Notes under the pieces: model-generated
Told to the model about the DNA's origin: nothing
What the model saw: only the letters and a program-made list of their open reading frames with translations
The model's database searches: none
Shown: positions 41,031 to 45,141 of the stretch, piece after piece
Position numbering within the stretch: the first letter of the stretch is position 1
Layout: each line of letters begins with the position of its first letter
Assembly: GCA_019637585.1 (NCBI GenBank)
Contig: JAHBVL010000003.1
Coordinates: forward strand, 91,827-155,826
Direction: 5' to 3'
Length of the DNA stretch: 64,000 nucleotides
Origin: Thermomicrobiales bacterium
GTDB lineage: Bacteria > Chloroflexota > Chloroflexia > Thermomicrobiales > UBA6265
Made by a program: the position numbers and the translations under genes

Positions 41031-41168
41031 AAGGGCCAGTGCTCCCCACAATCTGCCGGAACCACACAACAGAAACCCGCAAACACAGAGAGGGGTCTCC
41101 GGAGGGGAAACGAAAGCGGGCGGTCCGGAAATCCGGACCGCCCGTTCCTGATGCCTGTCTGGGAGTCG

Positions 41169-42653
41169 CTACTCCGCAGTCAGCGTCATGGTCATTCCGG
41201 CTTCTTTGTGGCCAGGAATGTCGCATTCGATCTCATGCTCGCCCGCCGGCGCGTTCACGGTGATGACACGCGTTTCACCCGGATCGAGCTTCTCGTTGAT
41301 GCCGAGATCGGCACTGACGAAGCTGTGCTCGGCGGCCGCGCCCGAGTTGTCGAGCAGGATGGTCACATCCTGATCCGCCGGGATGGTCAGTTCGTCAGGC
41401 TCGAAGAAGATGTCGTGCATCTCGATCGTGAAGTCGGCGGCGGCCACAGGAGAAGCAGCCGGGGATCCGACCGGCGATGCCTCGGGAGTCGCGGCTTCGG
41501 GCGACGCAGCTGCGGCAACGTCTTCGATCGGTGTGGCCTCGGCCATGCCAGCGGCCGGGCTTGCTTCGGCCATACCGACAGCCGGCGTGGCCTCTTCTTC
41601 GTCAGCACCAGCCATCGGCGACGCCGCACTGGCCATTCCGGCAGCAGGAGACGCTGCCTCCTCCTCTTCACCCGCGGCGGCAACAGGCGAACCCTCCTCG
41701 CCCATGGCCCCGGTCTCCGCATCCGGAGTGGCGGCCTCGACTTCTTCGACCGTCGCCGTTGCGGCCACCGTCGGAGTCGGCTCTTCCTCGTCATCGTCCT
41801 GCGTGTACCACCAGGCGCCCGCAGCGATGGCGCCGAGAATGATCAACGGAATGAGCCACTTCCAGGGGCCGGAGCCGCCAGCTGACGCCGCAGCCGCGGG
41901 TGGCGGCGGGGGTGGTGGCGGAGGCGGTGGCGGCGGCGGTGGAGCCGCCGTCGTCCGCACTGGTTCGGTGGCCCGAACCTCCTGCTTGGCTGGTTCGGTA
42001 TTCTTCACCGGTTCCTCCCGAACAGTCGCCGCTACAGCGGCCTTCGTGAAACCAGCTTTACCGGCTTCAGCAACACTCGCAAAACAGACCTCCGGGATGA
42101 CCTGGGCATAACCCGCATCCGTCGGCTCGTAGTAGATATTCGAAGGTTCGTTGCCCTTCACGGGATAGCCCGCCGGACAATCGCGTCCACCTGGCCCCTT
42201 GACGAACCCAGCGGCCGCAGCCGCGGCGACTCCGGCCGCTGCTCCCGCAGCCCCGGTGCGCTTCGTCCGCGTGAACCCGGCGGCCTCAGCATCCTTCGCC
42301 GAAGCGAAACACTTCTCCGGGATCACCTGCGCGAACCCGGGATCGTCTGCCTCATAGTAGATATTCGAGGGCTCGTTGCCCTTTACCGGGTACGCGGGGG
42401 GGCAATCACGGCCACCCGGACCAGTGACCCAACCAGTCGACTCTGCCACGGCTCCACTCCGAACGCGAAGAAACCCCTGCTTGTCGGCGACAGCAGTATT
42501 CTCAAAACACATCTCCGGAATCACCTGGGCGTAGCCAGTATCCTCCGGGAGATAGTAGACATTGCCCGGCTCGTTTCCCTTGACTGGATAACCCGGAGGA
42601 CATTCTCGGCGGCCAGTACCCCTGACCCACCCGGTCCCCGAACGATCTGCCAT
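41169..42653 (-). CDS. membrane protein with three CPxxYPVKGN repeats and an extracellular cupredoxin domain
   Basis: 494 aa with an unusual layout. Residues about 7-64, 72-128 and 148-204 are three copies of a domain of the form GRxCPxxYPVKGNEPxNxYY...YAQVIPExCF...A...GF, resembling 'sunset'-type domains. Next come a proline run (about 238-253), one membrane helix (265-284, WKWLIPLIILGAIAAGAWWY), an Ala/Glu/Pro linker (285-407) and a C-terminal cupredoxin (408-494) with His in AEHSF and the C-x4-H-x4-M cluster CDIPGHKEAGM. Charges flanking the helix (K before, DDDEEE after) predict the repeats inside and copper domain outside. Function unknown. Confidence 0.85.
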   Translation of the reverse strand: MADRSGTGWVRGTGRRECPPGYPVKGNEPGNVYYLPEDTGYAQVIPEMCFENTAVADKQGFLRVRSGAVAESTGWVTGPGGRDCPPAYPVKGNEPSNIYYEADDPGFAQVIPEKCFASAKDAEAAGFTRTKRTGAAGAAAGVAAAAAAGFVKGPGGRDCPAGYPVKGNEPSNIYYEPTDAGYAQVIPEVCFASVAEAGKAGFTKAAVAATVREEPVKNTEPAKQEVRATEPVRTTAAPPPPPPPPPPPPPPPAAAASAGGSGPWKWLIPLIILGAIAAGAWWYTQDDDEEEPTPTVAATATVEEVEAATPDAETGAMGEEGSPVAAAGEEEEAASPAAGMASAASPMAGADEEEATPAVGMAEASPAAGMAEATPIEDVAAAASPEAATPEASPVGSPAASPVAAADFTIEMHDIFFEPDELTIPADQDVTILLDNSGAAAEHSFVSADLGINEKLDPGETRVITVNAPAGEHEIECDIPGHKEAGMTMTLTAE

Positions 42654-42796: not shown

Positions 42797-43336
42797 CTAC
42801 TCGACGATCAGCGTACCCACCATGCCGGCTTCCCGGTGACCGGGCACATTGCAGTAGAACTCATACGTGCCGGCGGGCGCGTTGATCTCGACTTCATACG
42901 ATTCGCCAGCAACCTGATCGACGCTGATATCGAGCTCATCGATGGAGAAGTTGTGCGGCGCCGCGCCTTCATTGGGGATGGAGATCGTCACAGCGGTGTC
43001 CGCCGGGATCGTCAGCTCATCCGGGTCGAAGAAGATGTCGTGCGACACGATCTTCAGTTCGCCAGCTGGTTCGTCCCCTTCGGGAGCCACGGCCTCCGGC
43101 GAAGCAGCAGCTTCGGGAGATGCGGCCACTGGTGACTCAGCAACGGGAGTCGCGGCTTCCGGCGAGGCGGTCTCTTCGTCTTCGCCAGGCGTCGGCGAAA
43201 GCACCGGCGCGTTCGGGGGGTTCGGAATACGGGTGACCGTTGGATGAGCCTCCTCGCTGCCGCCACTGCCACATGCAGCCAGAACGACTCCGAGCAGAAG
43301 CACCATGCTCATCATCGAGATAAGCCGCTTTCCCAT
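42797..43336 (-). CDS. cupredoxin-domain lipoprotein
   Basis: 179 aa. Signal peptide with lipobox (VVLAAC, Cys about residue 22), then a Pro/Ala/Glu-rich tether and a C-terminal cupredoxin domain (about 95-179) carrying His in APHNFS and the cluster CNVPGHREAGM. It would be a surface-anchored copper protein, possibly an electron carrier. It is related in sequence to the C-terminal domain of the next gene at 41169 (DIFFDPDELTIPAD in both), indicating duplication. GGAAGGA lies 8 nt before the ATG. Confidence 0.88.
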   Translation of the reverse strand: MGKRLISMMSMVLLLGVVLAACGSGGSEEAHPTVTRIPNPPNAPVLSPTPGEDEETASPEAATPVAESPVAASPEAAASPEAVAPEGDEPAGELKIVSHDIFFDPDELTIPADTAVTISIPNEGAAPHNFSIDELDISVDQVAGESYEVEINAPAGTYEFYCNVPGHREAGMVGTLIVE

Positions 43337-43497
43337 CGACCCAGTCCTTCCTTCCGATCCCCAGTGCATTGCCAGACCCGACGCCCACCCACCACCGTGG
43401 TTCGACGCAGGTCGCGGTCTTGCCGATCAGCGCCCGGCGGCGCCTCGCACACACGCCATTCTAGTCCCTTGCGCTCCTGTCCGCCCTGCGCGGAGCG

Positions 43498-43921: not shown

Positions 43922-44704
43922 CTACAGGAAGATGACCATCGCCCCGGCCACAACCGGCACGACCACGATCGCCACGCGCAACACCCGCACCGGCAGCCTT
44001 CGCGTCAACTTGGCCCCCAGAAATGTCCCCGCGGAGAGTCCCACCACCGAACCGACGAGATGCGGTCCTGAAACGTCGCCGTGCCTGGCCAGCACAGTCG
44101 CCGCCGACGCGCTGATGAAAACCAGCGCCCACATCGTGGTCCCCACCGTTTGCCGCAATGACAACCGGTGCATCGTCAGAAACCCAAGCTGCAGATAAGG
44201 CGCCATGCCCACGCCCAGAAATCCAGCAGCGACGCCACCGGTCGATCCGAGCCCGATCGAGGTGGCGACTTCCCGTTTCAGCGACAGCGGCTCGCCGGCG
44301 TCATCGAGTCCGGCGGCGGATGATTTCACCACGCGAGTCCGGATCCAGACCAGCACGGCCAGCCCCCAGAGCGCCAGTCCGGACGCCAGCCGCAAGGTGT
44401 TCTCCGCCACACCCTGACTCGCGTTGGCTCCGGCGATGCCGCCGATGATCCCCGCGCATCCGGTGACGAGTCCCACCCGGAGGGCGACATTCCCTTCCCG
44501 GAAATGGGAAAACGCTCCCGAGAGGGTGACGACGCACATGGCGGCCAGCGCGGTTCCGATTGCCTGGTCGATGGGGAGATCGAACACCCCGGCGAGGAGT
44601 CCGAGGAGCACACCGGCTCCACCGGCTCCGATGAATCCGAGAATGATGCCGATCAGGAAGGTCGTCAGAATCAGCAGGACCAGCGTCGCTGGTTCGACAC
44701 TCAT
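43922..44704 (-). CDS. TSUP family transporter (TauE/SafE)
   Basis: 260 aa, about eight helices in two repeats, each starting with a glycine-rich motif (GIILGFIGAGGAGVLLG; GLGSTGGVAAGFLGVGMAPYLQL). The family exports or imports sulfite, sulfonates or other organic anions; no sulfur gene nearby identifies the substrate. The start overlaps the stop of the small membrane protein gene by 4 bp. Confidence 0.88.
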   Translation of the reverse strand: MSVEPATLVLLILTTFLIGIILGFIGAGGAGVLLGLLAGVFDLPIDQAIGTALAAMCVVTLSGAFSHFREGNVALRVGLVTGCAGIIGGIAGANASQGVAENTLRLASGLALWGLAVLVWIRTRVVKSSAAGLDDAGEPLSLKREVATSIGLGSTGGVAAGFLGVGMAPYLQLGFLTMHRLSLRQTVGTTMWALVFISASAATVLARHGDVSGPHLVGSVVGLSAGTFLGAKLTRRLPVRVLRVAIVVVPVVAGAMVIFL

Positions 44705-45043: not shown

Positions 45044-45141
45044 GGGGGCGGATGGGGCCCGGTGGCCTCCCCGGTCTTCAAAACCGTGCGGGCGTCGGTG
45101 ATCCCGGCGCTGGTGGGTTCGACTCCCATGCGCCCTCGCCA
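45044..45141 (+). tRNA. selC: selenocysteine tRNA (anticodon UCA)
   Basis: 98 nt with encoded CCA. Features special to tRNA-Sec: anticodon loop CTTCAAA with UCA at 45078-45080; a 6-bp D stem (GGGGCC / GGCCTC) closed by the short loop CGGT; a long variable arm (GCGTCGG / CCCGGCGC); a TTCGACT T-loop; discriminator G. The acceptor GGGGGCG pairs with CGCCCTC (one G-U), with a G opposite G at the eighth pair. It lies between the small membrane protein gene and the RpiR gene. Confidence 0.92.

Follow-up and report, generated by a model that had tools for sequence, protein, structure and literature searches.

The gene considered here joins three cysteine-containing repeats to a cupredoxin through one membrane helix, which raises the question of what such a protein would do and of which side of the membrane each end would occupy. 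It lies in a 64,000-nucleotide stretch of a Thermomicrobiales genome, referred to below as the window. The original prediction, made from the letters of the window, described it as a possible transmembrane copper/redox sensor or tether.

Protein architecture

The 494-aa protein contains, from N- to C-terminus, three sunset domains, a polyproline stretch, one membrane helix, an acidic linker and a cupredoxin, which are located as follows.

41169..42653, minus strand: whole gene, open reading frame with an ATG start, 494 aa
42468..42626, minus strand: sunset domain 1, residues 10-62, found by our own profile and NF051437
42267..42428, minus strand: sunset domain 2, residues 76-129, found by our own profile and NF051437
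42042..42203, minus strand: sunset domain 3, residues 151-204, found by our own profile and NF051437, with an AlphaFold2 model
41898..41942, minus strand: run of 15 prolines, residues 238-252, also called as a tandem repeat
41799..41864, minus strand: membrane helix, residues 264-285, from hydropathy and a helix in the model
41439..41798, minus strand: acidic Ala/Pro/Glu linker, residues 286-405, low-confidence model without secondary structure
41172..41438, minus strand: cupredoxin, residues 406-494, ligands H443, C477, H482 and M487

The repeats span residues 8-64, 74-130 and 149-205 (about 57 residues each), and each contains two cysteines (18/49, 84/115 and 159/190, respectively). Pairwise identities are 60-72% at the protein level and 62-65% at the DNA level, with BLOSUM62 scores of 202-228 for the repeat pairs and a mean of 24 and a maximum of 59 for 500 shuffles of one repeat. 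Thus, the three repeats with two cysteines each are as originally described, but at these identities "near-identical" is an overstatement. The proline run, the single helix, the acidic linker and the cupredoxin with a complete ligand set are all borne out by sequence, hydropathy and Pfam, the linker having 27 acidic residues and neither Lys nor Arg. As for structure prediction, AlphaFold2 folds repeat 3 (residues 145-206, 60 sequences) at pLDDT 93.8, and the full-length model has a mean pLDDT of 46.4 (3-row alignment), with the helix and the cupredoxin as its usable parts.

Identity and distribution of the repeats

All three repeats match the NCBIfam model NF051437, "sunset domain-containing protein" (6.9e-41 and 138 bits for the whole protein, cut-off 27), and the single copies score 59.6, 56.1 and 41.1 bits against the same curated cut-off. 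The repeat is therefore rejected as a new domain, and the combination involves not an unknown repeat but an NCBI-named one. Pfam gives no match to the repeat, the sunset domain being absent from that collection, and a literature search for the domain by name found no paper about it. In most sunset domains a His stands at a position that is Tyr in the window repeats (YH versus YY).

The domain is widespread. A match to the repeat region is present in 28 of 32 genomes of the window's family, and a phylum sample gives sunset matches in 46 of 400 genomes, 40 of them above the cut-off. The profile search of named genomes yielded 79 loci, from Thermomicrobiales, other Chloroflexi, Micrococcaceae, Microbacterium, Nesterenkonia and others. 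Plasmids contain the domain in 4 of 72,556 records, and phages in none of 50,697 (the query being one actinobacterial copy).

According to a survey of 115 distinct proteins taken from the collected loci, sunset hosts include ribosomal proteins, trigger factor, nucleases, and exported and membrane-anchored proteins. Pfam partners are SNase (7 proteins), the trigger factor C-terminus (6), ribosomal S6 and L4 (2 each), and L17 and S16 (1 each); the domain is also joined to surface-type domains (e.g., SdrD_B) and to one HEPN protein. Cupredoxin_1 accompanies it in 1 of the 115, the window protein itself. Among the 111 proteins whose 3' end is closed, the last sunset domain lies at most 5 residues from the C-terminus in 81, 6-40 residues in 27, and more than 40 residues in 3, so that 108 end within 40 residues of it. 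The window protein, with 290 residues beyond its third copy, is one of these 3, the others being L022 and L076; it thus departs from the C-terminal placement that prevails in these loci, which is not known to be part of the domain's definition. Like the window protein, both have sunset on the N-terminal side, followed by a proline-rich stretch and a helix; unlike it, they carry about 50-60 additional residues at the N-terminus and one sunset copy. L017 and L021, with the N-terminal addition, one sunset domain and a proline-rich stretch, probably belong with them. No cupredoxin is seen in these four, of which L017 and L021 are cut by contig ends and L076 is partly masked there. Besides the helix, L022 and L076 have an acidic or SPVA-rich linker.

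Two further arrangements were observed in the survey. L031 (165-1331, minus strand) has a sunset domain at both ends of a long Lys/Ala/Pro-rich, histone H1-like middle, and L106 (328-3183, plus strand) has an open frame of 952 residues, with a membrane helix at the N-terminus and four sunset domains.

Relation to the Ada metal-binding domain

Comparison of the repeat model with the PDB gives three matches, all of them the metal-binding N-terminal domain of Ada (1u8b, 1wpk and 1zgw), with no other family listed. These matches are weak (Foldseek E 0.98-1.9; VIA Z 3.2-4.4). Aligning the sunset profile with 13 Ada-type domains in hhalign gives P 3.5e-6 and a probability of 87.6. The Ada family in Pfam, PF02805, does not match the window repeat and matches 4 of 60 sunset domains (best E 0.035); the PF02805 and sunset models match the same DNA at G092:C162 (below the sunset cut-off), G092:C83 and G101:C82. 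However, no invariant Ada cysteine aligns to a sunset cysteine: the window repeat has Tyr, Asp and Ala opposite the first three, and the fourth lies beyond the end of the hhalign alignment. An Ada-type zinc site in the repeats is thus rejected. Based on the structural, profile and shared-DNA matches, together with the lost Ada cysteines, sunset likely has a fold related to that of Ada but lacks the zinc site.

Kinship with the DNA-binding Ada domain, weak as it is, and the fusions to trigger factor, S6, S16, L4, L17, SNase-type nucleases and one HEPN protein are what would speak for the repeats as cytoplasmic nucleic-acid- or ribosome-binding modules, by which the protein would anchor ribosomes or the nucleoid at the membrane. 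The repeats are, however, net acidic (−2 to −3 in the window, −3 to −4 in the ortholog from G024, described below). A sunset copy occurs in a single PDB sequence, Cutibacterium acnes L4 (1.4e-13), and in the report on the C. acnes ribosome the uL4 extension, the site of that copy, is without density and called likely disordered (PMC10085706). This role is accordingly held to be quite unlikely. Net charge speaks against nucleic-acid binding by the window repeats, which stand at −2 to −3; secreted actinobacterial copies average +3.8.

The cysteine pair

Both sunset cysteines are present in 106 domains, neither in 17, and 3 domains are discordant (126 domains; Fisher p 6.5e-18, with kinship ignored). 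This count takes in 126 of 133 domains, those without the [VIL]KG[ND] motif being skipped. With a narrower cysteine window, the 133 domains divide into 97 with both cysteines, 17 with neither, 9 discordant and 10 without the motif. Among these 9, 8 belong to a longer variant with Cys after Phe (WFC; WFR in one), and 7 of the 8 longer-variant domains show cysteines on both sides once the window is widened. A smaller count of 43 domains gives 33, 9 and 1, respectively. Cysteines that are kept and lost together fit a pair that works together, e.g., as a disulfide.

As a mark of an outside-only disulfide, however, the pair is not clean. According to a copy assignment read by hand, 10 of the 12 sunset copies attached to ribosomal proteins or trigger factor lack both cysteines and 2 have both; since such cytosolic copies exist, the pair is no proof of an outside location. 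C-terminal sunset domains with neither cysteine are found, for instance, on the trigger factor and ribosomal S6 proteins L020, L029, L030, L032, L035 and L037.

Two testable ideas on sunset follow from its probable relation to Ada and from the coupled cysteines. Taken to their furthest, they would make the domain a worn-down Ada zinc module in which the cysteine pair took the place of the metal site, with three cytoplasmic dithiol modules wired through the helix to an outside copper domain as a thiol/copper redox relay or sensor across the membrane. We consider this very improbable; if true, the relay or sensor would be of an undescribed kind.

Membrane topology

The best hydrophobic window covers residues 266-284 (hydropathy 1.55). 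There are 25 Lys/Arg residues before the helix and 3 in the approximately 210 residues after it, and the 494-aa sequence has no signal peptide. These two results support the original placing of the repeats in the cytoplasm. As cupredoxins are usually located outside, they also support a single-pass protein in the N-in/C-out orientation, with the repeats probably inside and the cupredoxin probably outside.

An Ala/Gly-rich segment between repeats 2 and 3 (residues 133-151) reaches a hydropathy of 1.51, near that of the helix. It is probably a linker rather than a second helix, since related proteins show similar Ala-rich stretches after the sunset domain. As for the family itself, many actinobacterial copies come after an export signal and the ribosomal and trigger-factor copies are cytosolic, as read by hand. 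Sunset as a strictly cytoplasmic domain, and hence as proof of topology, is thus rejected: because it also sits on exported proteins, the family alone leaves the side unfixed.

Cupredoxin domain and partner lipoprotein

Pfam Cupredoxin_1 matches residues 404-482 (4e-15, 56.1 bits, cut-off 27). The four ligands make up a full His/Cys/His/Met set in the form C-x4-H-x4-M, which is that of a type-1 copper site, and the best Foldseek matches of the domain model are 4hcg and 4hcf (prob 1.00). Fold, sequence and H/C/H/M ligands are shared with other Cupredoxin_1 proteins, such as the Bacillus cupredoxin (4hcf) and the auracyanins (2aan and 6kol). In contrast to these, the domain would here sit on the outside, at one end of a membrane protein whose sunset domains would lie in the cytoplasm.

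In this genome the module is joined to a number of different partners, which we read as including cytochrome c-like and PQQ-dehydrogenase-like proteins. One carrier is encoded next to the sunset gene, in a row of conserved neighbours, and a terminator-like hairpin lies on the other side of the gene.

42797..43369, minus strand: partner lipoprotein with cupredoxin, ligands H139, C173, H178 and M183, conserved neighbour in L043
43498..43878, minus strand: FeS_assembly_P (PF01883) gene, conserved neighbour
43922..44704, minus strand: TauE/SafE-type permease, conserved neighbour
41117..41144, minus strand: terminator-like hairpin, 12 pairs, 24 bases past the stop codon

The lipoprotein has its own Cupredoxin_1 match (1.7e-14) and a lipobox-like LLGVVLAAC, and at 1e-18 it has matches in 28 of the order's 61 genomes, often in tandem. 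Proteins of this bacterial family with three or more tandem cupredoxin modules were observed at L173, G002:C496, G022:C52 and G024:C4.

Conservation of the architecture

At E ≤ 1e-30, with up to 25 candidates scored per genome, 2 of the 61 genomes searched in the order match the whole protein, one being its source genome and the other the MAG Thermomicrobiales bacterium ACE_NR_CHLO10 (G024). The G024 copy is 57% identical over residues 71-430 of the window protein and shows two sunset domains (one fewer), a proline run, the helix, DDDxxxPTPTVAAT, a linker that has diverged and the first part of a cupredoxin, the rest of which is cut off by the contig end. The order of the TauE, FeS_assembly_P, cupredoxin lipoprotein and sunset protein genes is identical there, with identities of 63%, 77.5% and 49% for the permease, FeS_assembly_P and lipoprotein, respectively. 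Thus, the pairing proposed for the adjacent lipoprotein and its sister cupredoxin is supported: the lipoprotein of the window has the ligand set, and the adjacency is kept in a second genus. In G008, an FeS_assembly_P homologue (80.6%) adjoins a two-cupredoxin protein without sunset.

A first scan of genome contigs with the whole protein as query gave no match, and a phylum search over 301 genomes found it only in that of the window itself, a weak negative with 5 candidates scored per genome. Titles and abstract openings listed by literature searches on related systems contain nothing on a sunset-helix-cupredoxin architecture. Both domains are known, and tandem sunset domains at a probably cytoplasmic N-terminus with a presumably outside cupredoxin appear to be a rare combination of known parts; the unusual element is this combination, a rare variant in which sunset stands at the N-terminus.

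Proposed function

The domains, their order, the ligand set, the charge asymmetry and the conserved pairing with the lipoprotein are computed results. The reading that we prefer, and to which we give about an even chance, is a membrane-tethered type-1 cupredoxin, carrying electrons or, less likely, copper, with a cytoplasmic sunset adaptor. The long flexible acidic tether would hold the blue-copper-like domain at the outer membrane face, where together with the neighbouring cupredoxin lipoprotein it would carry electrons, or with lower probability copper ions. Electron transfer is favoured because the same module is fused to the cytochrome c-like and PQQ-dehydrogenase-like partners; the ten neighbours scanned include no electron-transfer gene. 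On the inner side, a proline-rich rod may set the three sunset domains off from the membrane, and these may, by analogy, bind a cytoplasmic partner as adaptor or anchor, rather than form a metal site. The side of each end, copper loading, electron transfer and the adaptor role are what we infer.

The two adjacent cupredoxins might instead form a copper-handling pair that buffers copper or delivers it to an outside cuproenzyme. This reading also draws on G024, whose lipoprotein adjoins a sunset protein with a visible cupredoxin start, and on both window proteins matching a CopI model, though weakly (2.4e-8 and 1.4e-9). The corresponding scores of 34 and 38 bits are, however, far under the cut-off of 280. 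The 494-aa protein is below the equivalog cut-offs of both CopI models (34 bits versus 280 for NF051440 and 12.3 versus 200 for NF047895), and the scan of the ten neighbours brought up no copper ATPase and no PCuAC- or Sco-like gene. Copper handling is therefore regarded as rather unlikely.

A transmembrane sensor, in which the outside cupredoxin would detect copper or redox state and thereby act on the cysteine pairs of the cytoplasmic repeats or on a partner of these, would profit from domains on both sides of one helix and from the coupled presence of the cysteines (106 both, 17 neither, 3 discordant). On the other hand, the long flexible linker outside and the proline-rich stretch inside would make poor signal relays, and the cysteines are also present where no cupredoxin is attached. 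The ten neighbours contain no signalling domain, kinase, cyclase or copper regulator, the sole regulator among them being of the rpiR type with a SIS domain. Given also the absence of the Ada zinc cysteines, the sensor part of the original prediction is not supported, its probability being low; the tether part is supported.

The favoured tethered-cupredoxin reading adds one more such protein to a lineage in which the module is found in many fusions. The architecture is also a natural construct for probing the function of sunset, a widespread, NCBI-named domain on which no paper was found.

As for the ends of the transcription unit, the hairpin past the stop codon may close it; the scan found 2 terminator-like sites versus 1.7 expected by chance. 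No RNA family was found near the gene, the only one in the surroundings being a tRNA-Sec farther away (45044-45141, plus strand; Rfam 65.5 bits, ARAGORN anticodon tca), which lies beside the rpiR-type regulator gene.
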